Below, one piece after another: positions 3,657 to 24,880 of a DNA stretch of 34,035 nt. The stretch is from Microcaldota archaeon. Lineage in GTDB: Archaea; Iainarchaeota; Iainarchaeia; JAADDC01. The notes beneath the pieces were generated by a model. It was given only the letters and a program-made list of their open reading frames with translations, searched no databases and was not told the origin of the DNA. How positions within the stretch are numbered: position 1 is the first letter of the stretch; every line of letters starts with the position of its first letter. A program made the translations under genes and the position numbers. The stretch lies in the NCBI GenBank assembly GCA_027011045.1, contig JALVAT010000011.1, positions 1-34,035 on the forward strand. Direction: 5' to 3'.

Positions 3657-6600
3657 ATGGGGATACATATGGAGGGCGAGGGAGCGCTAGGCGAATTCTC
3701 CCTGGAAGAAGAGGGAATGGGTAGAACAGAGGAGCTTGTAGCGCGGTTCGAGGAATTCTTCCGTCTAGCATATGAGAAGGAGCTCCAGGAGTATTTGAGC
3801 ACCCACCCGAACGCCAGAAGCGTTGTAGTCGATTATAGAAAGCTTGAAGCCTTTGACTACGACCTTGCGGACGCGCTACTGGACGAGCCCAACGTCTACT
3901 TGGACGCCATGGAGACAGCGCTCCGCAGAATGGAGCTGCCCGGGATCGAGCCCGGGACGGAAATAAAGGTCAGGCTCACGAACATACCGCCGGACAGGAC
4001 GATCCTCGTCCGAAACATAACGGCTGATTACATAGGGAAGATTATCGCCGTAGAGGGACTCGTACGACAGATTTCAACCGTGATGCCACGCCTTGTGGTG
4101 GCACGCTGGGCCTGTAAGAAGTGTGGGCGAACCTATGACGTGGTTCAAGAGGGTCAAAAGGTAAGAAAACCGTACGCATGTGTCTGTGGATCTAAGGACT
4201 TTGAACTCCAGCCGGACGAGTCGAAGTGGGTGGATTTTCAGCGCATTCAGATCCAAGAACCAATAGAATACCTGCGCGGTGGCGAACAGGCGAGGTTCAT
4301 TGACGTATACCTCGAGGGAGACCTTGTAAACACGGTCAAGCCCGGAGATCGCGTGAACGTGGTAGGTATCCTCAAGCTCCTGAACCCAGAGGGCAGGAAA
4401 ATAGTATACGGCAAGTACATCCACGCAATTTACATAGAACCGGTCCAAAAGGAGTTCGAGGAGCTGGAACCAACCCCTGAAGAGATAAAGAAGATAAAGG
4501 AGCTCGCACAGGATCCGGAAATTTACGAAAAGCTCAGAAAGTCCATAGCTCCAACGATATATGGGCACGACGAGATCAAGGAAGCCGTTGCACTGCAGCT
4601 CTTCGGCGGAGTCAAGAAGGAGCTACCGGACAGAACGCACATCCGTGGAAACATCCACATCCTCCTGATGGGTGATCCAGGTACGGGTAAGTCGCAGATC
4701 CTACGTCACGTGGCGCAGATCGCCCCGAAGAGCATATACGTGGCTGGAAAGACGGCGTCAGGTGCTGGACTTACGGCAACGGCAGAGAAGGATGAAATGG
4801 GTGAAGGCGGCTGGGTAATAAAGGCTGGAGCCCTGGTGTTAGCGTCCGGCGGGATTGCGGCCGTGGACGAGTTTGACAAGATTGATGCGAAGGACAGAGC
4901 GGCGCTGCACGAGGCGATGGAGCAGCAGAGCTACCACCACGACTTCGAAATCATGCTGGCGGATAGATCTAAGGCGAAAATAGGCGAACTGGTGGACAAG
5001 CTCATCGAAGCCAACAGGGATAAGATCGTAAGGGGGAAGGACACCGAAATACTGCCCGATCCCGGTGTGGAGCTCCTTGGATACGACCTTAAGAGCAAGC
5101 AAATAGTAAGAGTAAGGGCAGATCGCGTAAGCAGACACATCGCCCCGGATCACTTCATACGGATCGAGTTTAGCAACGGCAGAGAGATAACCGTAACGCC
5201 GGAGCACCCGGTAATGATATGGCGGGATGGCAAAATCGCAGAGGTGCCCGCAGAGCGTGTACGGACCGGAGACCTTGCGGTTGCGGTGAGAAGGTACCCG
5301 ACGTTGGAAAAGCCCTTCGACAAGACCCTCGCGCGGTTCTGGGGCTTTGTACTCTCGGAGGGATTCACGTATAAAAACGAAGGGAACGGCTACTACGAGA
5401 TCGGGTTCACCAACACGGACAAGGAGCTTGTAGATGAGTTCGTAGGTGTCGTGAAGGCATTGGGGCAGAAGTACAGCATACAGGTTTCAAAAAGGGGTAG
5501 AAACAAGCCCCTTTACACCGTTCGGATCATCTCCAAGGACTTCTATGGGAAAATGATGTCACAGTTCCCGGAGGCATTCCCAGTAGGGGAGGGGCGCCCA
5601 GCACTCCTGAAGCGTATTCCATCACGAATACTTGGCGCCGATGAGGACGCGAAGAAGGCATTCCTCAACGCATACTTCAAGGGGGACGGCTTCATATCGC
5701 CGCTTCGAACAGGGTTCATCACGGCATCGAGGAAGATGGCTGAAGATCTGCAGGATATGCTATACAACCTCGGGATATACTCCTACATAGCCACAGAGGA
5801 CAGAGCGGGCCGGGAATACTATAAGGTTGTTATCTCTGGGCCCGAATCGCTCGAGCAGTTCTACGAAATTGTAAAGGACGATAAACGGTCCGAAAGAATC
5901 CTGCAGCTAGCAGAGCTGGCAAGGAAAAAGTCCAACCATAAGGATCCGCTTCCACGGGAGCTGGTAGTCACATTGAAGAACACGCTCAAGGCGCTGCACA
6001 TCGACGACGGCGTCCTCGGCAATAACATAAAGAGGGAGCAGAACGTACACCGCGAAACCGCCGAGAAGTATGTACACCTCATAGAGGAGACCATAAGGGA
6101 CCTGGAGAACGCTCTAGAGAGGAGAGACGTAGGCACACTCGCACGCTTCGTGCAGATAAGGGCCCTGGCGAAGAAGACGGGCATCCCAGAGTCCACGCTG
6201 CGCTACAGGCTCAAGAAGAAGGATGAGAACACAGTGCACGCCCTCGAGAACATGGCCAGAGCCCTGCTGGAAAGGGTAAAGGAAAACGTCCAAATACTCC
6301 GCGAGTATATAAGCGGGAACATACGATTCCTGCGCGTGAAAAACGTGGAACGCGTCGAGAACAGTGGATGGAAATGGGTTTACGATGTAACGGTGGAGCC
6401 GTATCACCTCTTCGTATCCCACGGACTTGTACTACATAACACGATAAGCGTTGCCAAAGCGGGAATCGTAACGACGTTCAAGGCAGATACGGCAATCTTA
6501 GCAGCGGCCAACCCGAAGCACGGCAGGTTTGACCCCAACGAAAACCCAATCACGCAGATAAACATAGAGCCCACGATTCTGTCTCGTTTTGACCTTATGT

Positions 6601-7307
6601 TCATAATACGGGAGAAGCTGGATGAAGATAGGGACAGAAAGATCGCTGAGCACGTGCTGAAAACACATTTAGCAGGAGAAAAGCGAATGGCATACGAAAA
6701 GGGGGCCGACGAAACGCTTACCCGTGAAGAGGTCGAAGAGGCTGAAAAGCACGTGAAACCGGCCATAGACATCGAACTTCTAAGAAAGTACATCGCCTAC
6801 GCGAGGGCGCACGTTTTCCCGGAGCTCAGCGAGCAAGCGATGAAAAAAATTGCAGACTACTACGTGAAGCTCAGGCAGCTGGGAAAGAAGATGGGGACCG
6901 TGCCCACAACGGCAAGACAGCTGGAAGCGCTCATCCGCCTGGCGGAGGCGTCTGCAAGGGTAAGGCTGTCCCCCATAGTGACGGAGGAGGACGCCGAAAG
7001 GGCAATACGGCTGGCGGAGAAATCCATGGAAGAGGTGCTGGTGGATAAGGAAACGGGGGCGATAGACTACGACGTCCTCACCACGGGAACAACGAAGAGC
7101 AAGCGTGAGAAGATGAAGATCATACTGACCATAATAAAGGACTACACCCGTGAGAACGACAGCATGCCCTACGAAGAGCTCCTAGAGCAGGCAAAGGAAC
7201 TCGGACTCGACGAAATGGAGGTAAACGAACTCGTCGAGGCCCTGAAAAAGAATGGAGACATATATGAGCCCAAGCCAGGGCTGCTCAGGCCCGTGAGTCC
7301 CTCGTAA
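3657..7307 (+). CDS. mcm: Replicative helicase MCM, interrupted in frame by an intein
   Basis: Zinc motif CKKCGRTYDV...CVCGS, Walker A GDPGTGKSQ, Walker B AAVDEFDKI, arginine finger LSRFDL; EAMEQQ and TISVAKAGI are separated by 504 aa. Confidence 0.96.
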   Translation: MGIHMEGEGALGEFSLEEEGMGRTEELVARFEEFFRLAYEKELQEYLSTHPNARSVVVDYRKLEAFDYDLADALLDEPNVYLDAMETALRRMELPGIEPGTEIKVRLTNIPPDRTILVRNITADYIGKIIAVEGLVRQISTVMPRLVVARWACKKCGRTYDVVQEGQKVRKPYACVCGSKDFELQPDESKWVDFQRIQIQEPIEYLRGGEQARFIDVYLEGDLVNTVKPGDRVNVVGILKLLNPEGRKIVYGKYIHAIYIEPVQKEFEELEPTPEEIKKIKELAQDPEIYEKLRKSIAPTIYGHDEIKEAVALQLFGGVKKELPDRTHIRGNIHILLMGDPGTGKSQILRHVAQIAPKSIYVAGKTASGAGLTATAEKDEMGEGGWVIKAGALVLASGGIAAVDEFDKIDAKDRAALHEAMEQQSYHHDFEIMLADRSKAKIGELVDKLIEANRDKIVRGKDTEILPDPGVELLGYDLKSKQIVRVRADRVSRHIAPDHFIRIEFSNGREITVTPEHPVMIWRDGKIAEVPAERVRTGDLAVAVRRYPTLEKPFDKTLARFWGFVLSEGFTYKNEGNGYYEIGFTNTDKELVDEFVGVVKALGQKYSIQVSKRGRNKPLYTVRIISKDFYGKMMSQFPEAFPVGEGRPALLKRIPSRILGADEDAKKAFLNAYFKGDGFISPLRTGFITASRKMAEDLQDMLYNLGIYSYIATEDRAGREYYKVVISGPESLEQFYEIVKDDKRSERILQLAELARKKSNHKDPLPRELVVTLKNTLKALHIDDGVLGNNIKREQNVHRETAEKYVHLIEETIRDLENALERRDVGTLARFVQIRALAKKTGIPESTLRYRLKKKDENTVHALENMARALLERVKENVQILREYISGNIRFLRVKNVERVENSGWKWVYDVTVEPYHLFVSHGLVLHNTISVAKAGIVTTFKADTAILAAANPKHGRFDPNENPITQINIEPTILSRFDLMFIIREKLDEDRDRKIAEHVLKTHLAGEKRMAYEKGADETLTREEVEEAEKHVKPAIDIELLRKYIAYARAHVFPELSEQAMKKIADYYVKLRQLGKKMGTVPTTARQLEALIRLAEASARVRLSPIVTEEDAERAIRLAEKSMEEVLVDKETGAIDYDVLTTGTTKSKREKMKIILTIIKDYTRENDSMPYEELLEQAKELGLDEMEVNELVEALKKNGDIYEPKPGLLRPVSPS
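4929..6440 (+). mobile_element. Intein with LAGLIDADG-type homing endonuclease in MCM
   Basis: 504 aa starting with Ser (SYHHDFEIML), Hint blocks TPEHPV and VYDVTVEPYHLFVSHGLVLHN followed by Thr; two LAGLIDADG-like helices, LARFWGFVLSEGF and KKAFLNAYFKGDGFI. Confidence 0.93.
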
Positions 7308-14643: not shown

Positions 14644-15327
14644 TTACCGCGCCGCGAGCAGAAGGCTGCCCTCGTATAGCAGGACAAAGATGGTAAACAG
14701 CAAAACATCAGTAACCAAGAGATCCCCGGGGGTGATAACTGCGGCAAGAACGTAAAACAAGAGGTATGCATAGCTCCTGTACTTTTTCAGCAGCTCGGGG
14801 GAAACAATACCGGAACGGACCAGAAAGTAAAGAAGTACGGGAAACTCAAAGACAAGACCAAGGAGTACAGCAAGAGATAACCAGAGATTAAACAGCTCGG
14901 GGGCTGAAAGAAGAAGCTTAGCCCCAAGAGCCCCGGAAAAGAAATAGGATAGCTCCAGAATCCGGGGGAAGAGAGGAATGCTAATCAAGACGCCCACGAG
15001 AAAGAGAACTGCCGAAATGGTAGCAAGATTTGCGATTTTCTTTCGCTCCTCGGGGAAGAGGGCGTCCCTGGCCCAGGAATAGAAGAGTAAAAGAAATACG
15101 GGAAGTGTAAGGAGCGCAGCAACAAGGGCAGGGGCAGTAAAGTAGAATCCGAGAACGTCCGAGATGCCAAAGAACACTACATCATGGTTTTGGGCCCCCG
15201 ACAGATCAACAATATAGCTGAAGAATCGGGGAAACATATGGAGAAGGAGCAAGTAAAGAACTAGAAAGACGATAAATGAACGAAGGAGGATCCGACGGAG
15301 AGAAAGAAAGTGCTCGGATACTGCCAC
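14644..15327 (-). CDS. tatC: TatC translocase subunit
   Basis: Multi-TM protein with TatC features FYSWARDALFPEERKKI and VITPGDLLVTDVLLF. Confidence 0.9.
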   Translation of the reverse strand: MAVSEHFLSLRRILLRSFIVFLVLYLLLLHMFPRFFSYIVDLSGAQNHDVVFFGISDVLGFYFTAPALVAALLTLPVFLLLFYSWARDALFPEERKKIANLATISAVLFLVGVLISIPLFPRILELSYFFSGALGAKLLLSAPELFNLWLSLAVLLGLVFEFPVLLYFLVRSGIVSPELLKKYRSYAYLLFYVLAAVITPGDLLVTDVLLFTIFVLLYEGSLLLAAR

Positions 15328-16263: not shown

Positions 16264-17148
16264 TTAGACGTAAATATCCCACGGAATGCGATCATCGTTC
16301 AGGACGACAATCCGGCGGAGGTCTAGATACGGGTAGGTCTGTGTGACGCCTATGAACCATGGCGTGTGAACCTGGACCACACCGTGATAGCTATCCCATA
16401 CAATGGGGGACTCCAAGATCTCATAGAGCCAATCAACGGCTTCTGGATCCAAATCCTCCATGACCTTGCGCCACTTTTTGCCAACGCGCCGAGTCTCCTC
16501 GCACCTATGGGAGTGGGGAATATGGGACGTCACACGGATACCAAAGTAGCGAAGCTCCTGGATGGCCTCTGGATATGGGTCCGTAATGTAAATGACGAGC
16601 TTGTCTGCCGTTTTCAGCCAGGGGTTTTCTTCAACAACGGGGGAGCCATCGTTGCGCGCCACCTCCCAGAGGGGATCATACACGCCAGCATTCCAAACCT
16701 CTGTAAAGAACTGGGTACAGCAAGATGGGTAGCCAAGGAGCTCGCCAATTACGAGATGCCCATCGCGCCTGCCCGATGCCTCCTTGAAGCGCCGGGCATC
16801 CTCCTCCGTTCTCGCAATAACCCCGTACCAAAAGTACGGCTCCCCTCGGCGCGGAGGAATATGTTTGTGGGAAAAACCGCTGTAAAAGGCACTCCTTGCA
16901 ATGGGGAGGAAGATTAGACCGTCCCGTTGGATGCGCTCTATGAACTGTGGAAAATTTTCAAGGGTAACGTGATACGTTGCAGCCCTGCGATAGCCGCGTC
17001 GCACCATCTCATACTCCGTAAGGGCATGGAGCCGGGAAATCCTGTTCAGACGAGGCTCCCAGAGCTCCTTATCCCTCGGGGTCCGCCAAATGATTCTCGT
17101 GAAGTTAGATATCTCAAATTCGGCTTTACTTACGTCAAATCGTTTCAT
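16264..17148 (-). CDS. DUF483-like protein
   Basis: IGELLGYPSCCTQFFTEVW; ATG abuts the stop of the upstream radical SAM gene (TGAATG). Confidence 0.7.
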   Translation of the reverse strand: MKRFDVSKAEFEISNFTRIIWRTPRDKELWEPRLNRISRLHALTEYEMVRRGYRRAATYHVTLENFPQFIERIQRDGLIFLPIARSAFYSGFSHKHIPPRRGEPYFWYGVIARTEEDARRFKEASGRRDGHLVIGELLGYPSCCTQFFTEVWNAGVYDPLWEVARNDGSPVVEENPWLKTADKLVIYITDPYPEAIQELRYFGIRVTSHIPHSHRCEETRRVGKKWRKVMEDLDPEAVDWLYEILESPIVWDSYHGVVQVHTPWFIGVTQTYPYLDLRRIVVLNDDRIPWDIYV

Positions 17149-18336
17149 TCAGCCACACCTTCTCCCACCGCTATCGAGGTGCCGCATACCGCCATCCAAG
17201 TGCTCTATGCCATCAGAATGCTGAACATTACTATCCAAGTGACGAATACCGCCGTCGACATGCTCGAAGGATTTATTGGGGCGAGAAGATTGTTGCTCGC
17301 GGAACTTCTGTATGTAGGCGGGCGTAACCCCCATAAACCGCAGCACGGAATCATAATAGTCAAGAACAGCGCGCCATGCAGGGCAGTTCAGATCCCTGTT
17401 GCGCCAGTCCCCATTCAACCCATTGGCCGAACAGCCGCCGTAGCAAATAGGGAAGTACTTGCAGCCTCTGCATCCCCCGTATTCATAGGGAGTCTTGGAA
17501 AGGGCCTCCTCCCGGATCTGCATCCTTCGAGAATCCCGAACAAGGGGAAGATGCCGCTGGCAGTTCGTTATTATCTTGTCGCCACGGAGCACAAGAGCTG
17601 CTGCCGTGTTAAAGGGATCGCAGGGCCTGAAGACGCAAACAACCTCGCCCTTGCCCGTAATCGCGTTCCAAAGATCTACAAAGGGAGACCACCTATACCC
17701 ACGGTCAAACATGAACTCGGCAAGGCGACGGTAGACCTGTGCAAGGCGATCTGGATCCAAGAAGAGGTCCTTGGGGGCAGGGTATCCAAGGGGGTTTAGG
17801 CGCCCGGTCACCCCAAGATCCCCGGACATGTGGTCAATAAATTCTAGGAGACGGCTGAAACGTTCCTCGGTTCCGGCGTTATAACGATGCACAACGGTGA
17901 TTAGACCGACACTGACACCCTCTGAAACGAGGCGCTCAATATTATCCAGGACGCGCTTTGTAAGATTTGGGGGAGCCCGGAGTACATTAAGCTCACCGGG
18001 TCCGTCGATGCTAACGCCAACACTCACCTTAAACTCCTTGAAGAGCTCGATGATCTCGTCGTTTATGAGGGTTCCGTTCGTCTGAATGGAAATAGGGTAG
18101 CCATACTTCCTAATCGTCTCAAAAATGCGCCGGATGTGCTCCGGGGGAAGTATCAACGGCTCTCCACCGTGCAGTGTAACAAGGTGCCCGACATCCGGGT
18201 CGCGGGAGGAGAGCAACCGTTCCAACTCTCCGATAATCCAGTCTATGTCGTAGTCAGGGTTGCGAAAGAGCCTGTTCTGGTAGCAGTACTTGCAGGATAA
18301 GTTACACGCAAGGGTGGGCTTGATCAGTAGGGACAT
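17149..18336 (-). CDS. Radical SAM/SPASM protein, putative peptide maturase, with HxD-repeat C-terminal tail
   Basis: CNLSCKYCY (CX3CX2C), HGGEP, SIDGPGELNVLRAPP, SPASM-type GGCRGCKYFPICYGGCSANG...C; tail FEHVDGGIRHLDSNVQHSDGIEHLDGGMRHLDSGGRRCG. Confidence 0.9.
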   Translation of the reverse strand: MSLLIKPTLACNLSCKYCYQNRLFRNPDYDIDWIIGELERLLSSRDPDVGHLVTLHGGEPLILPPEHIRRIFETIRKYGYPISIQTNGTLINDEIIELFKEFKVSVGVSIDGPGELNVLRAPPNLTKRVLDNIERLVSEGVSVGLITVVHRYNAGTEERFSRLLEFIDHMSGDLGVTGRLNPLGYPAPKDLFLDPDRLAQVYRRLAEFMFDRGYRWSPFVDLWNAITGKGEVVCVFRPCDPFNTAAALVLRGDKIITNCQRHLPLVRDSRRMQIREEALSKTPYEYGGCRGCKYFPICYGGCSANGLNGDWRNRDLNCPAWRAVLDYYDSVLRFMGVTPAYIQKFREQQSSRPNKSFEHVDGGIRHLDSNVQHSDGIEHLDGGMRHLDSGGRRCG

Positions 18337-18396: not shown

Positions 18397-19293
18397 CTAT
18401 GGTTCTATGGGATGTACATCGTCGACATGGGGGGCTGGGGTGTCTGAGTAGGGCAGCTTGTCGGAGTGCGGCAGTTCATCGCTGTGGGGGATATCATCGT
18501 ACGCATCACTGTGGTCAAGATGTATATCATCGTGAACGATGTGTGGCTCGTCTATGTGGCTAGTATCACTCCAGTCCTGGTGGGAGACATTCGTATGGTC
18601 CGAGTAGTCCCCATGGCCCGTATCTGCATGGTCAGAATAATCATCTGTCCAGTCGGAATGTGAATCGTACCAGTCGCCATGGTCAATTGTGTGATCGATG
18701 TAGCTGTTGTTTGAGTCCCAGTGGCCATCATCATGCCCACAGTCAGGATCATACGTAGTACACTCCAAAGAACCATCCTGATGACAGCAGTTTGTGGGAC
18801 AATCCATGTGATCATCCATGTGGCCAGAGCTGTCCCCATACTCGTCAGCATGATGATCTGCTATGTTGGCGTGGGTGACACAGGGGTCTTCGTCGGAGTG
18901 GGAGGTGCCGTCCGTGTGATCTGCATGCGGTGTGTTCGAATGGCTGGTATCGTCGTGGGCCGCCACGTTAGAATGGTCCGAGTGCGTGCCGTCTGCATGC
19001 CAGTAGCGCTTGTTGCCGTCAACATCTATGAAGTATACCCAGTCGCTGGACACCCACGCAGAGCCAGAAGCACCGGAGGAACTACCCACAAGGGCAGAGG
19101 GAAGACTGCGCAAGTCACTATTGGCGTCGATGTAGTATATCCTATCCGCATTAATCCATATGGAGCCGGGCCTGCCAGAAACGCCACTGGTAACTAGCTC
19201 CCCCTCCTGGGCACGCTCGTTGCCATTCTCGTCTATGTAGTGGAGCTCTGTCCCTTCGACCCACATGGAGCCCGGCTGAGGCAAGCACTTCAC
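18397..19293 (-). CDS. Putative modification substrate: three fibre-like modules plus 200-aa (H/Y/W)-x-(D/N) repeat tail
   Basis: Three GSxWxxxxxxxxxYID-type modules, then YWHADGTHSDHSNVAAHDDTSHSNTPHADHTD...HSDELPHSDKLPYSD; about 37 triplets by hand count. Confidence 0.85.
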   Translation of the reverse strand: MKCLPQPGSMWVEGTELHYIDENGNERAQEGELVTSGVSGRPGSIWINADRIYYIDANSDLRSLPSALVGSSSGASGSAWVSSDWVYFIDVDGNKRYWHADGTHSDHSNVAAHDDTSHSNTPHADHTDGTSHSDEDPCVTHANIADHHADEYGDSSGHMDDHMDCPTNCCHQDGSLECTTYDPDCGHDDGHWDSNNSYIDHTIDHGDWYDSHSDWTDDYSDHADTGHGDYSDHTNVSHQDWSDTSHIDEPHIVHDDIHLDHSDAYDDIPHSDELPHSDKLPYSDTPAPHVDDVHPIEP

Positions 19294-19296
19294 CCG

Positions 19297-19551
19297 TCAC
19301 GTTACGTACTTGTCGGAGCCCACAGGTAGTTGCAGGCCACCGATGTTCTTAATCACGGCTCCGTTTCCGTCTATATACGTACCGTATATTTGCATGCCGC
19401 CGTTAACGTCAATATGATCCGTGTAGATTTTAACCGTGTGCTCGCCCACCTTGAGATCGATCACACGTAGCGTTTCAACCGGCACATCCTTGAGCAACCA
19501 ATTCACGAAGCGCACCTTCAACCGATGGAGCACCCTGCTAAAGTATCCCAT
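19297..19551 (-). CDS. 84-aa protein with fibre-like modules
   Basis: VKIYTDHIDVNGGMQIYGTYIDGNGAVIKN, similar in pattern to neighbouring YIDxNG modules; same operon. Confidence 0.7.
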   Translation of the reverse strand: MGYFSRVLHRLKVRFVNWLLKDVPVETLRVIDLKVGEHTVKIYTDHIDVNGGMQIYGTYIDGNGAVIKNIGGLQLPVGSDKYVT

Positions 19552-19560
19552 GGAACCACC

Positions 19561-22500
19561 TCATTTCCATTGGTGTATCTTGCCGCGAATCCAAATATCG
19601 CCGTTGGCGTCGATCTTCATAATGGGTTTACCCTGTGGGTTCAGCAGAACAAGGGCGTCGTTCCCATCTTCCACCACGCGGAAATTGTTCTTGAATTTCA
19701 AGTCGCCGGCTTGAAGCAGCGTGGAGGCTATTATACTCGGGGCGCGTATGGCACCGGCGGCGGATATTGACGTGGTGGTGTTCGAAAGGTCAATATAGTA
19801 CGACGGATTGTCCCGATCGGTGAACTTCGTTCCCCTGATCTCGCCGGCGACGTCCAGTTTAGCTCCGGGGGAAGTTGTGCCGATGCCAACGTTCCCGCCG
19901 TTGAAGTAACTGTCCCCATTTACCGAGATGCTCACTATTGCCGTAGGGGTTCCGTTACCAGCATACAGCACAAGGGCCTTTTTTCCTGTAGTGTTTGTTT
20001 CCCTGAAGAGCGTAACAAATACGTCTGACGTGCTGTCTGACTGATACGGATTAAGATCTACCCTTGTCTCCCTATAGCTGCCTACAAAGGGGTTTATTGA
20101 AAATAGATTGGTTACATAGAGCCGCGATCTGGAGAGGATGCTCCCGTTCACGTCTAGCTTCGCAGCGGGGGAAGTCGTGCCAATGCCAACGTTGCCCGTG
20201 GACCTCTTAACAACAAAGGTCTTTGAATCCTCGTTCACGACAAGGGCAACGTCGCTAGTGCTGATCTCGTGGGAAACGTAACCGCTGGGGATCGAACCGG
20301 TGGTGGGTGTTATAAGGGACCAGCCATATCCGGTAATACGTCGGATTTCAACCCGCATACCGTAGGACGAGTTTGGATTGGAAACATAGATCTCGAGGTA
20401 CATCGGATCGTAAGTGCCGTTTTCGAGGATGCGGATCTTCGTGACTCCAGAGGTCTCGGAGCCGTAACGAGAAGTACTCAACACGTTGAGAACAATACCA
20501 TTCGCGTTGCCGAAGTTAGCCCCCGCAATGAAGTAAACGTGCCCGTGGGCTCCTCCGACAGCCCAACGAATCTCAAAGATCCCTGCATTATTAGAGGCGT
20601 TGGAAGGAGATTGCGCAATGCGGTACCACTGAGAGGTGCTGGCAGGAACGGTGAGAACGGTCTTCTGGAGGTACACATCATTGGCGTAAATAGCGTTTAG
20701 CCTAGAGGTGGCTGCAGGATCCAAATAGTATCCAGTATTCCCAGAGTCGTAGTAAATGGGGGCGAGGATCTTCGACCCCACGCGCAGAGTACCCCTGTGG
20801 TATGCATTGCCCGCTGCGGTAAAGTAGTGCTGTACGATTGCGTTGGCAGTGCCCTGGGAACAGCCGCCGTTGGAACAGGAGCCACCCCATATGGAGAAAC
20901 GCTCTGAATCGTCCTGGTCGTCCTGCAGGTACAAGCGAAGATCATAGTCACTGGTTCCCGACTGGAAGATCCGGAGGAAGGCGTTGTCGTTGGAGCTCGC
21001 AATGCGGGGGAAGCTCATGATGATGCTGTTCGCCTCACCGCCCAGGGTGAGGTAGCCTCCGTTGGGTGTGGGTACCGCAGCCCCCTCCACGCGCAGGTAC
21101 CCATTGTAGATGTGCAGCTTCGCAGCGGGGGAGGTTGTTCCAATTCCAACGTTGGTGCTATTGTCGTAGATCTGGGAGTTGCCCAGGGTTGTGCTGCCAG
21201 TCCACTTGGGGATGTAGTTCTGGGTGCCGGAGCCTGTCACACCTGCATTGTCCGTACCGCAGAGTATATTACCGGAAGAATCGGTGTAGAGCTTGGAACA
21301 GTTTGTTCTTGTAGCGAGACGGAGCGTTCCACCCTCTACAGAAAGAACATCGGGTCCAGTAATGCGAAGGCGAACGTCGTAGTCCGAAGTGCTGCCGTTA
21401 TAGTGAAAATCGATGTAAGGAGTACCAACACCAGCCGTTGAGTTGTCACCGCCAAGTTCGATGCTACCGCCCTGATTGCCAGTGATTAAAGAGTTGTTAC
21501 CCCAGCGGACAGCCCCAACGTAGACGGTACCGGCAACGTACGCGTTGCGCCAGCGGGCTGAGGACGTGCCGAGGTCAGTAGCGTTATCCGAGTACGGTCG
21601 CAGGGTACCGTTAATGGCCACAGACTTGTTAAAGTAAAAGGCTGGCCTGTCGGTTATGAAATGTGCCCATGAGCTGTTCTGGGAACCGATATCGACATAT
21701 CCGGCAGGTGTCGCCACACGGAGAGCGTTGTTGGAGCCCTTTGAAAGCGCAGTATTGGAATCTCCGACGTAGTATGTCGGTGCCAGGATGGAGCCCGAAG
21801 CGGAGATCACGGAGGAAGTAACCGCAGTAAATGAGCCGGACAGAGAATATACGGACTTCCAGCGGTTAGAGGAAGTCCCGAGGTTTATATTGTTGTCACG
21901 CTCGGGATAGAAATTCTGGCCGTTAAGAATTACAGAGTATCGGGAATTCCAGTCGCTCTGGAGGCCAGATATGAGCTTAACAGGGCCGTCGGAGGTAACG
22001 TACATCGTTTCGTTCCCGGCATTGTGAACGTTAGTGTAAGTGGTACTCGCAGATTCTCCAGAGCCGATGATCATCTGGCCGCCGCTCTGGATGTATACCC
22101 CAAAGCCGTAGGCGTACGGACCGTAGGGCTGAATCAGCGTAGCGTAATGGGATCCGTCCGTTATACGAACTGCGGAGTTCAAGTTCAGGTCGAAATTGCC
22201 GTAAAGAGTCCCCGAGTTAAGCAAAAGGTTGTACAGCTTGGATGTCGAGGCGGGATCCAGATAATAGCCAGTGTTGTCCCGATCGGTGAACTTCGTTCCC
22301 CCGATCTCGCCGGCGACGTCCAGTTTAGCTCCGGGGGAAGTTGTGCCGATGCCAACGTTCCCAGATCCGTTCACGTAAAGGTATATGCTCCCCGAAGACC
22401 ATCCATCGGCAGTGTGTGCAATCGCAAAGTAATCCCCATAACCATGGAATCCCAACATCCAGCCTTTGTTGTTGGCAGGATTCGTATAGACGATTGCGCG

Positions 22501-23166
22501 ATACTGTGGCCCCGAAGCACTTGATATTGAGATTGCCTTTGTCCACCCCCACCAAGATGTAGTCCCAGAATAACCCGGGATTGAAATGCCATTCTGTGCA
22601 CGAATCTCCCCAGCAACGTCTAGCTTCGCAGCGGGGGAGGTTGTTCCAATTCCAACGTTGGTGCTATTGTCGTAGATCTGGGAGTTGCCCAGGGTTGTGC
22701 TGCCAGTCCACTTGGGGATGTAGTTCTGGGTGCCGGAGCCTGTTACCGTGTTGCCGTCGTAGGGGCTGCACACGATTTTTCCGCTACTATCTGTTGCGAG
22801 ATAATTACAAGGTGCTATGGGTAGGAAGGCGCTGCCGGACACGCTCAGAACGCCCACGGAGATAGAGTTAGAATGAAGGAGGTTCAGCTCGCTACGTCCA
22901 GCGGGATTCACATAATAGGATGTCTGGGGCGTGCTATACAGAGAGCCCGAGATAAAAATGTCTGCCCACGGCGACGAAGAAGACCCGATCGAATAGCTGC
23001 CAGCGGGCACCATGTTTCCAGAGATCGTGGAGTCCGTGAGGATAAACTGACCGTTCCGAACTTCAAGGGGGCGATTGGACACTATGACGCCAGAGGCGTA
23101 GGTAGAGCTGATGAGCAAGAGCACAACTGTAAGGACTAATAGATACCTACCGGGCCGCATTCGCAT
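19561..23166 (-). CDS. Large secreted tail-fibre/adhesin-like surface protein
   Basis: Signal peptide MRMRPGRYLLVLTVVLLLISSTYASG; repeated NVGIGTTSPAAKLDVAGEI, GSGTQNYIPKWTGSTTLGNSQIYDN and TGYYLDPAATSRL; ends NPQGKPIMKIDANGDIWIRGKIHQWK. Confidence 0.9.
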   Translation of the reverse strand: MRMRPGRYLLVLTVVLLLISSTYASGVIVSNRPLEVRNGQFILTDSTISGNMVPAGSYSIGSSSSPWADIFISGSLYSTPQTSYYVNPAGRSELNLLHSNSISVGVLSVSGSAFLPIAPCNYLATDSSGKIVCSPYDGNTVTGSGTQNYIPKWTGSTTLGNSQIYDNSTNVGIGTTSPAAKLDVAGEIRAQNGISIPGYSGTTSWWGWTKAISISSASGPQYRAIVYTNPANNKGWMLGFHGYGDYFAIAHTADGWSSGSIYLYVNGSGNVGIGTTSPGAKLDVAGEIGGTKFTDRDNTGYYLDPASTSKLYNLLLNSGTLYGNFDLNLNSAVRITDGSHYATLIQPYGPYAYGFGVYIQSGGQMIIGSGESASTTYTNVHNAGNETMYVTSDGPVKLISGLQSDWNSRYSVILNGQNFYPERDNNINLGTSSNRWKSVYSLSGSFTAVTSSVISASGSILAPTYYVGDSNTALSKGSNNALRVATPAGYVDIGSQNSSWAHFITDRPAFYFNKSVAINGTLRPYSDNATDLGTSSARWRNAYVAGTVYVGAVRWGNNSLITGNQGGSIELGGDNSTAGVGTPYIDFHYNGSTSDYDVRLRITGPDVLSVEGGTLRLATRTNCSKLYTDSSGNILCGTDNAGVTGSGTQNYIPKWTGSTTLGNSQIYDNSTNVGIGTTSPAAKLHIYNGYLRVEGAAVPTPNGGYLTLGGEANSIIMSFPRIASSNDNAFLRIFQSGTSDYDLRLYLQDDQDDSERFSIWGGSCSNGGCSQGTANAIVQHYFTAAGNAYHRGTLRVGSKILAPIYYDSGNTGYYLDPAATSRLNAIYANDVYLQKTVLTVPASTSQWYRIAQSPSNASNNAGIFEIRWAVGGAHGHVYFIAGANFGNANGIVLNVLSTSRYGSETSGVTKIRILENGTYDPMYLEIYVSNPNSSYGMRVEIRRITGYGWSLITPTTGSIPSGYVSHEISTSDVALVVNEDSKTFVVKRSTGNVGIGTTSPAAKLDVNGSILSRSRLYVTNLFSINPFVGSYRETRVDLNPYQSDSTSDVFVTLFRETNTTGKKALVLYAGNGTPTAIVSISVNGDSYFNGGNVGIGTTSPGAKLDVAGEIRGTKFTDRDNPSYYIDLSNTTTSISAAGAIRAPSIIASTLLQAGDLKFKNNFRVVEDGNDALVLLNPQGKPIMKIDANGDIWIRGKIHQWK
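21116..21237. repeat. 122-bp direct repeat in the fibre gene, copy A
   Basis: Identical to 22622..22743. Confidence 0.93.
22622..22743. repeat. 122-bp direct repeat in the fibre gene, copy B
   Basis: Identical to 21116..21237; offset 1506 bp is divisible by 3. Confidence 0.93.
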
Positions 23167-23563
23167 CACCCGAATAACGGTAAACGCCAATGTACCCGCA
23201 CTCTGCGTTAAGGACGATTTCAGGGGCGCCCTTTGAATAGGATGGGCAGTGACCAGAATCGTTTACCACAACAGCGCAGGCATATCCGTTAAGATCGTCG
23301 TCAAGGCACAGCCCGCCTGTAAAGGGTACGCCGGCAGACTTGGTGGCTGCACAGATCTCACGACACTTGGACACAATAGGGTTGTTTACGTTGAGGTCGG
23401 GCTGGCTACCAGGCAGGACGCCAACGATAGTGCCGGAACGAATATGTGGACTACAGGGCTGGGATAACGATGCCATGAAGTCTCCAACCACATAGCCAAG
23501 GGCGAGGGCAAGGATACCCACAAAAACGCACAGATACTGACAGTAGTGGCTATTCCAACGCAT
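23147..23563 (-). CDS. Cys-containing secreted/membrane-anchored protein, function unknown
   Basis: N-terminal TM (YLCVFVGILALALGYVVGDFM) and several Cys in the exported part; overlaps the start of the fibre gene. Confidence 0.65.
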   Translation of the reverse strand: MRWNSHYCQYLCVFVGILALALGYVVGDFMASLSQPCSPHIRSGTIVGVLPGSQPDLNVNNPIVSKCREICAATKSAGVPFTGGLCLDDDLNGYACAVVVNDSGHCPSYSKGAPEIVLNAECGYIGVYRYSGDANAAR

Positions 23564-23632: not shown

Positions 23633-24880
23633 CTAGTTGAAGTTCACATCGTCGTCAAGGAGTACATCCGTCGGCAGATCGAAGAGGGAAAACGGAGAGG
23701 AAAATGACGAGCAACACAGCGTCGAATCCATGGAAGAGCTGCTGGAGATATCTTGTTTGTTAGCAAGCACGCCAATATATCGCAAGGATGTATTGCTATC
23801 GTGGTGCAGGAGCACGCCGTAATCAACGTCGTTCACATCGGCATAGGAAATCGAGACGGTATCACTGGAGCAAAGGGCGATGGCTGGGGAAACGCGAGAC
23901 ATCCTAAGGGATGAGCCCGTGAAAGAAACGTCCGAAGAGTTCGTCACCCAGATGCCACCGGCGCGATAGAGCGTGTAGGATGAACCACTCGTAGAGCGGA
24001 GGGCGTAGAGGGGTCCCGAGGTGGTTGCCGCTTCAACGGTGCTGATGTTACAGAGCGTATTGGGTGTTGACGGATCAAGGTAGATGTCCTGAGCATTATC
24101 ATGGGCGTAAACAGACAGTAGAGATACAGAATTGCTGTTTCGGAGGTAAATACCCTTGGAAAAGTTGAGGACCTCGCAGTTCCGTAGCGTAATGTTATTA
24201 GAATCGACAATCGCGATGCCCGTGCCGGAGCCGGAGCCAGAGATCGTGGAAATACAAAATATTGTGAGATTGGACTTCCCATTTATATCCAGGCAGCTTC
24301 CACTGGCGGAGGATACGTCCACAGCTATGAGCGCACTGGGTTTTGCGGCGGATATGACAGCGTTGCATGAGCTGCAGTCCTTACATTGGAAGAACACGGG
24401 GGATCCCGGAAGGTTGCCTGCAAAGCTTACGCGAGCGGCGAGGGGAACGCGATTGACGTAGACCTTGAGTGAAAGTGTGGAAAACTCGGTGGGTGGCGGT
24501 AGCTTATCCGTGAGAACGCTGAAGTACAGGGTGCATGGCGTCTCGGGGCCAATGGCAGGTCCGCAGGAACCAACACCCCTGGCGATGAGCGCACCGTCCC
24601 GATAAAGGTACCAGCTGGCAGCCGTGAATATGGGGATGGGGTTCTCCGAGGTGTTGATTATATGAACGGTAAAGTTGGTGATGTTGCCCTCGATTGTAGC
24701 CACGGCGGAACTTATCTGGACGTACTGTGATGTTAGATCGGAGTAGTGCTCCATTTCCATCTGTGCGCGGAGTCTTTCCAGGGATACGAGCTGAGTGGTG
24801 AAGAAGTAGTATGCGCCGACGGCTAACAGGGCAAGGACGATAACGAGAAGGGTTCCCACGGACTCTGCCTGTCCACGCAC
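23633..24880 (-). CDS. Class III signal-peptide protein with right-handed beta-helix-like domain
   Basis: MRGQAESVGTLLVIVLALLAVGAYYF, then NITLRNCEVLNFSKGIYLRNSNSVSLLSVYAHDNAQDIYLDPS. Confidence 0.75.
   Translation of the reverse strand: MRGQAESVGTLLVIVLALLAVGAYYFFTTQLVSLERLRAQMEMEHYSDLTSQYVQISSAVATIEGNITNFTVHIINTSENPIPIFTAASWYLYRDGALIARGVGSCGPAIGPETPCTLYFSVLTDKLPPPTEFSTLSLKVYVNRVPLAARVSFAGNLPGSPVFFQCKDCSSCNAVISAAKPSALIAVDVSSASGSCLDINGKSNLTIFCISTISGSGSGTGIAIVDSNNITLRNCEVLNFSKGIYLRNSNSVSLLSVYAHDNAQDIYLDPSTPNTLCNISTVEAATTSGPLYALRSTSGSSYTLYRAGGIWVTNSSDVSFTGSSLRMSRVSPAIALCSSDTVSISYADVNDVDYGVLLHHDSNTSLRYIGVLANKQDISSSSSMDSTLCCSSFSSPFSLFDLPTDVLLDDDVNFN

Follow-up and report, generated by a model that had tools for sequence, protein, structure and literature searches.

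A conserved gene cassette pairs aromatic-x-Asp/Asn array proteins of archaea and phages with a radical SAM/SPASM enzyme

Results

Genes at the archaeal locus

The stretch of DNA analysed, called here the window, comprises positions 1 to 34,035 of contig JALVAT010000011.1 (assembly GCA_027011045.1) from a Microcaldota archaeon. It contains, on the minus strand, an open reading frame at 18397..19293 (GTG start, 298 aa), which is a genuine coding frame and encodes the array protein, the probable substrate of the radical SAM/SPASM enzyme encoded beside it. The juxtaposition of a 298-aa protein and a radical SAM/SPASM gene, claimed in the original prediction made from the sequence alone, was confirmed with a correction of the start: translation probably begins at a TTG codon at 19284, giving a 295-aa product with N-terminus MPQPGSMWVEG, because this codon falls, in the alignment, on the ATG at which the syntenic homologue starts (MPLPGSIWVEG), and is preceded by GGGTGA. 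The same prediction had missed four features, described below: the GSxW repeats of the array protein, the HxD tail of the enzyme, a DUF483-like gene and a gene for an 84-aa tail-fibre-type protein.

The N-terminal domain of the array protein (first 98 aa; 19000..19293, minus strand) is made up of three repeats of about 30 aa, of the form PGSxWxEGxxLxYIDxxGxxR, which AF2 predicts to fold as four-stranded beta blades with pLDDT about 90. The remaining part, residues 99-298 (18400..18999, minus strand), is an aromatic-x-Asp/Asn array; in the AF2 model this region, unmodified, is predicted to be disordered, with pLDDT mostly below 50. It contains exactly 37 [HYWF]x[DN] triplets, 33 with Asp and 4 with Asn, in agreement with the approximate count of 37 originally claimed. 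Asp or Asn follows at +2 after 37 of the 44 aromatic residues of the region, against counts of 4-14 at the other spacings (1 and 3-7), and 20,000 composition-preserving shuffles produced a mean of 11.4 triplets (s.d. 2.6), with a maximum of 22. His and Asp codons are mixed (16 CAT and 16 CAC, 22 GAC and 23 GAT, respectively), and the array is therefore not the product of a recent tandem expansion at the nucleotide level.

The same architecture is shared by the array proteins of a second archaeal genome (G005, locus L012), of the Thermus phages Cumys and phiMa, of a Halomicrococcus plasmid and of IMG/VR contigs; two or more GSxW repeats were detected within the array ORF at 43 of 60 related loci. 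No signal peptide was recognised in the archaeal version. PDB matches to the model of the array protein were weak, several of them to beta-propeller-like proteins, and were left out of the evidence. Six Cys residues are located at about residues 137-186 (window 18736-18885), in a stretch which is missing from the G005 homologue.

The radical SAM/SPASM enzyme

The probable maturase is encoded at 17149..18336 (minus strand, 395 aa) and meets the criterion for a Radical_SAM domain, as it matches Pfam PF04055 with an E value of 4.8e-21 and 76.1 bits (cut-off 29.5). A CX3CX2C cluster motif is found at residues 11-18 and a SPASM-type CX2CX5CX3C motif at residues 289-302, flanked by Cys 234, 239, 259 and 318; both motifs are kept in 19 of 19 relatives. 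The family forms a single clade of 68 sequences, with support 100/98.

The C-terminal tail of the enzyme (residues 359-388; 17173..17262, minus strand) itself carries five HxD triplets, HVD, HLD, HSD, HLD and HLD. This tail is longer in the G005 homologue, and two or more triplets are present in the C-terminal tail of 56 out of 62 viral relatives.

None of the named cyclophane-maturase models is passed by the enzyme, the best scores being 91.6 bits for DynA (cut-off 450) and 87.4 for AmcB (cut-off 425), and its phage relatives likewise remain under every named cut-off of this kind in NCBIfam. The nearest relatives in PDB are the sulfatase maturases (anSME), followed by the radical SAM domain of the cyclophane-forming ChlB.

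Two further arrangements of radical SAM genes were observed. In one phage contig (L071:10403-13315) two such genes lie in tandem behind a single array protein, and the first copy carries about six HGDHTD-like units in its tail. The genome containing the window also holds a separate, second system (L002/L011, G000:C33:1083-2688), in which a 400-aa radical SAM/SPASM enzyme directly follows a 115-aa ORF with a Tyr-x-Asp array in the form of a (YSD)n run (YNDYNDYSDYSDYSDYSD...). The best models for this enzyme are DynA, sulfatase maturase and GrrM, all under their cut-offs, and at E 1e-60 no counterpart of the system was found in the phylum's 92 other genomes.

The DUF483-like partner and other genes of the window

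Directly downstream of the radical SAM gene lies a gene encoding a DUF483-like protein (16264..17148, minus strand, 294 aa), with an invariant PxCC and a distal Cys. Its similarity to PF04467 (DUF483) is local, confined to the surroundings of a GYPxCC motif, and misses the gathering cut-off of 25, with 17.7 bits for the window protein and 22.4 bits for its G005 counterpart, the two being 66% identical. The partner was found at 55 of the 60 related loci having room for it downstream. Its AF2 model has a pLDDT of 87, and a fold search with this model returned no match at E <1e-3 and no characterised fold. Many viral DUF483-like partners (L060, L132, L150 and others) are fused to a methyltransferase-like domain.

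Upstream of the array gene, an 84-aa tail-fibre-type protein (19297..19551, minus strand) ends with LPVGSDKYVT. In phages, modules of this type either end the gene preceding the array protein or are fused to the array protein itself, as in L084, L094 and L153. The motif [LIV]P[VI]G[TSVAN][DN][KR][WFYLM] was detected upstream at 19 of 60 viral loci, and in none of the control ORFs.

The same gene string continues upstream with a 1209-aa secreted-looking, tail-fibre-like protein (19561..23190, minus strand), syntenic in G005, which matches PHROGs annotated as tail, tail fiber or tail spike with E down to 6e-15. A tie between this protein and the cassette is possible and rests on position only. 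The tail-fibre-like gene is adjoined by a region (window 23633-24880) encoding a right-handed beta-helix protein of 415 aa, whose N-terminus is hydrophobic and pilin-like, and a protein of like size and N-terminus occupies the same place in G005. A TatC gene is located near the cassette (window 14644-15327), as it is in G005; Tat exports folded proteins, and a protein that is modified in the cytoplasm would fit this route. No twin-arginine signal was found on the array, 84-aa or 1209-aa proteins. Elsewhere in the window, at 3657-7307, a 1216-aa MCM-like helicase ORF looks, by eye only, as if interrupted by an intein (block near VEPYHLFVSHGLVLHN).

The cassette in archaea, phages and a plasmid

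The array protein, the radical SAM/SPASM enzyme and the DUF483-like protein form a conserved cassette, typically located in tail or baseplate modules, which is found in two Diapherotrites archaea, in cultured Thermus phages, on a haloarchaeal plasmid and in many IMG/VR contigs.

Within the phylum the enzyme is rare, being present in only two of 93 genomes. The second one, G005 (WANZ01000027.1), is a MAG from a different genus of Diapherotrites, in which a tail-fibre-like protein, a 79-aa protein, the array protein (295 aa), the enzyme (63% identical to that of the window), the DUF483-like protein, TatC and Cdc48 follow each other. Reading of parts of the two archaeal loci revealed no capsid, terminase or baseplate gene, and for this reason the archaeal cassette seems chromosomal and perhaps domesticated. 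This is an inference, as the tail-fibre matches are weak and the genomes fragmented.

Three cultured Thermus phages hold the same enzyme subfamily, with 54%, 54% and 50% identity to the relative at locus L014. In Cumys and phiMa, baseplate and tail collar fibre genes are followed by a string encoding a small protein (97 aa in Cumys, where it ends with LPVGTDRWAP), then an array protein of 342-343 aa with the same three GSxW repeats and a dense HxD array, the radical SAM enzyme, which has the HxD tail, and the DUF483 protein. The same string adjoins a baseplate J gene on the Halomicrococcus plasmid, and in one IMG/VR contig the cassette comes after a tail-collar-type protein. In phiLo no array is adjacent to the enzyme; three array proteins are encoded some 4-12 kb away, next to baseplate wedge genes. 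These are the consecutive giant proteins phiLo_135 to phiLo_137 (L242:43511-49000), with 58, 104 and at least 50 HxD/N triplets, the largest of which reaches 113 aromatic-x-D/N triplets; they are the densest proteins of this type seen in the analysis.

Co-occurrence of arrays and enzymes

The association was evaluated in both directions. A composition-based Poisson test for arrays was dropped, because it counted against dense arrays and passed over ORFs that overlap the frame of the enzyme; arrays were instead called by a windowed criterion, with other spacings as controls. Starting from the enzyme, a profile scan was performed and the best 80 matches were kept, corresponding to 62 distinct loci, to which the counts refer; with the criterion held fixed, an array was detected at 59 of them. 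No arrays were found at 18 control radical SAM loci, the sole control match being the second, YSD-type locus of the archaeal genome itself. The criterion was passed by 95 ORFs at spacing +2, against 1, 0, 0, 8 and 8 at +1, +3, +4, +5 and +6, respectively.

Starting from the array, IMG/VR was sampled with a DNA pattern for four HxD units, ignoring the enzyme, and the counts refer to this sample. Once His/Asp-rich wrong-frame ORFs and simple tandems, for instance (HKDN)n, are left out, the enzyme is encoded on the same record for 17 of 19 distinct bona fide long arrays. The original prediction was to be considered refuted if repeat proteins of this kind occurred mostly without a radical SAM neighbour; the opposite was found in both searches (59/62 enzyme loci and 17/19 arrays paired).

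Some apparent exceptions were resolved. L166, L168 and L172 contain sparser HxN/HxD arrays, L161 and L163 are truncated copies of array-bearing loci, and in L063 and L075 the enzyme is located elsewhere on the same record. Four exceptions to the pairing remain unexplained: L225, a 22.6-kb fragment where only the triplets of the enzyme tail are found; a Halorussus plasmid (L035), where enzyme and partner are present with no array; and two genuine arrays without enzyme, L121 and L140, on fragments of 17.6-19 kb. The metagenome loci are fragments. At L140:2011-2841, in a tail module on a 19-kb fragment, the HxD array is fused to a short phage domain (PHROGs 12764/26792). One locus from the first viral scan (L008, 27% identity), containing radical SAM genes of another kind and no array, was set aside.

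The triplet rule and its conservation

In the relatives, Tyr, Trp and Phe stand in for His under the same +2 rule. The residue at position 3 is Asp or Asn in 1,891 of 1,936 triplets starting with His (98%), while after Phe it is Asn in 161, Asp in 49 and Ser in 25 of 324 cases. In phages L179 and L186 the arrays are based on Phe ('PFDNTPFENVPFDNTPF', 'TPFVNFAQ'), and the corresponding enzymes are nested inside the HxD clade. In a Deltaproteobacterial relative the neighbouring protein ends with 'HIKIPYIKAPHVKAPHVKGW', an HxK tail.

Comparison of a diverged pair of loci, L205 and L206, revealed 20 synonymous and no nonsynonymous changes in the aromatic codons, and 14 and none, respectively, at position 3, against 10/18 for the middle residue and 16/28 for the linkers (Fisher p 1.4e-11). 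In this pair, purifying selection acts on the aromatic and Asp/Asn positions, while the middle residue and the linkers drift. Both the Phe-x-Asn arrays and the restriction of selection to positions 1 and 3 lend strong support to the proposal of an aromatic side chain as the shared chemical handle. The common denominator is an aromatic ring followed, two residues on, by a residue with a C-beta hydrogen, and not a metal site; since Phe-x-Asn arrays occur within the enzyme clade, metal binding is not the general explanation.

Comparison with known systems

In the published 3-CyFE rule a ring carbon of residue i is joined to the C-beta of residue i+2, with Trp, Phe, Tyr or His at position 1 and Asn, Asp, Arg, Ser or Ala at position 3; the bond made by YxdB runs from Tyr to the C-beta of Asp, and HaaB and YhhB use His (PMC11002830). 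The array meets this substrate-motif criterion, aromatic-x-(D/N/R/S/A) at spacing two, and the triceptide/3-CyFE systems (XncB, OscB, MscB, YxdB, HaaB, YhhB) likewise combine a radical SAM enzyme with SPASM, an aromatic residue at position 1 and Asp or Asn at position 3. The cassette enzyme is thus a radical SAM/SPASM protein with a triceptide-type substrate rule, under every named maturase cut-off. Triceptides, however, derive from a short precursor, whereas here a large structural protein carries tens to over 100 triplets; in addition, enzymes of the window type bear the motif in their own tail, have a DUF483-like partner and are found in a tail/baseplate or surface context. The array had been described as much longer than usual precursor cores, and the protein indeed belongs to a tail-fibre-type structural family common to phages, and is not a small precursor peptide.

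The His-Xaa-Ser system (HxsA/B/C/D) similarly pairs His repeats with a radical SAM maturase. The cassette is not such a system: the motif is HxD/N and not HxS, Ser being rare after His in the relatives, and in place of HxsB/HxsC with HxsD there is a single enzyme from a different subfamily (one phage has two) with a DUF483-like partner. The HxsB model is not among the 25 best matches of the window enzyme.

The ChlB-type radical SAM protein (PDB 9gm3) is the closest PDB relative after anSME, with similarity limited to the SAM-binding part. ChlB-type proteins are fused to an aKG-HExxH domain; PMC12633501 cites a title in which fused rSAM/HExxH proteins are described as forming cyclophanes.

A module of radical SAM, DUF483 and unknown genes was described in Cumys, phiMa and prophages by Kolesnik et al. 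2024 (PMC11437467), who suggested a role in DNA modification. It is composed of the same genes, Cumys_13 being the array protein, Cumys_12 the radical SAM enzyme and Cumys_11 the DUF483 protein, and the three homologues are found in the same order in the window, in G005 and in the Thermus phage module. Neither HxD arrays nor a protein substrate are described in the sections of that paper bearing on the module. The system was not found described in the open-access literature searched (phage tail with radical SAM, cyclophane), a search which did not cover subscription papers and most preprints.

Discussion

The array, the two-way association of the genes, the enzyme tail, the selection pattern and the tail or baseplate context are directly supported by the data. 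We consider it likely that the cassette makes a cross-linked surface protein of the tail-fibre type through cyclophanes installed by the enzyme; action on the array, cyclophane chemistry, stiffening and adhesion are all inferred, in the absence of mass spectrometry or activity data. Cyclophanes are proposed because the substrate rule is the published 3-CyFE rule and because, among solved structures, the ChlB radical SAM domain and the sulfatase maturases stand closest to the enzyme. The earlier interpretation that a radical SAM enzyme modifies the triplets is supported by association, selection and context, while the predicted loss of 2 Da per triplet remains inferred.

In the proposed mechanism, the radical SAM/SPASM enzyme (17149..18336) would act on the array protein (18397..19293) by removing, in each aromatic-x-Asp/Asn triplet, a hydrogen atom from the C-beta of residue 3. 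This carbon would then be joined to the aromatic ring of residue 1, forming a three-residue cyclophane, at -2 Da each, for up to 37 of them. In this way the disordered, acidic, His-rich tail may become a stiff rod that resists proteases and extends out from the beta-blade domain. The HxD tail of the enzyme would represent a tethered copy of the substrate motif, serving self-modification or array capture, and the DUF483-like protein would be an accessory factor. The product is predicted to be a tail or baseplate appendage in phages; in the two Diapherotrites, where the putatively chromosomal cassette lies among genes for surface proteins, it would probably be a fibre for adhesion to a host or surface.

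Three alternatives to the cyclophane model were considered. The enzyme might modify the triplets by other chemistry, such as beta-hydroxylation, epimerisation, a linkage between ring nitrogen and C-beta, decarboxylation, or methylation aided by the methyltransferase domain of the partner. Radical SAM/SPASM enzymes are chemically diverse, the closest PDB relatives are sulfatase maturases, which oxidise Ser or Cys, and the methyltransferase domain is fused to many DUF483-like partners. However, the fixed spacing of two, with interchangeable His, Tyr, Trp or Phe and Asp or Asn (also Ser, Gln), is the signature of an aromatic-to-C-beta linkage and not of a single-residue change, and this alternative is judged unlikely.

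Still less support can be given to two other readings, both very unlikely. According to one, the array is a His-Asp tail binding metals (Zn, Ni, Cu or Ca), and the radical SAM gene is a mere neighbour with another substrate. His and Asp are good ligands, the tail is disordered in the AF2 model, and His motifs serve for metal binding in some phage tail fibres. Yet the Phe-x-Asn arrays of the same enzyme clade could not serve as such a site, Tyr, Trp and Phe replace His under the same +2 rule, and the enzyme bears the same motif; the 59/62 co-occurrence and the Deltaproteobacterial relative with its HxK tail also speak against it. The other reading is that the radical SAM-DUF483 pair makes a DNA base modification, as proposed by Kolesnik et al. 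2024 for the Thermus phage module, in line with the reported location of cyanobacterial homologues beside DNA deazapurine genes and with the DUF483-methyltransferase fusions (PMC11437467). The sections of that paper bearing on the module do not discuss the repeats, and DNA modification predicts neither the tail/baseplate gene strings, nor selection at positions 1 and 3, nor the motif on the enzyme.

Under the cyclophane model, a bolder reading can be formulated, towards which the balance of the evidence tips only slightly: widespread virion proteins, together with a chromosomal surface fibre of the same design in some DPANN archaea, would be matured by a self-tagged radical SAM enzyme stapling tens to over 100 consecutive triplets into a rigid poly-cyclophane rod. 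No report was found of cyclophanes on a protein this large or dense. Virion structural proteins are not known to be cross-linked by radical chemistry, and the array proteins, if modified, would to our knowledge be the first. If true, the rod would be a polymer-like material of post-translational origin, with no known example in any virus or on any cell surface, and a new route to rigid protein fibres.

Large tail and surface proteins of phages, a haloarchaeal element and DPANN archaea are now found to follow the triceptide substrate rule, and an uncharacterised phage module, made up of radical SAM and DUF483 genes, gains a concrete substrate, testable in cultured Thermus phages. For the archaeon, the finding suggests that an organism with a reduced genome uses a fibre cassette of the phage type, perhaps for attachment.
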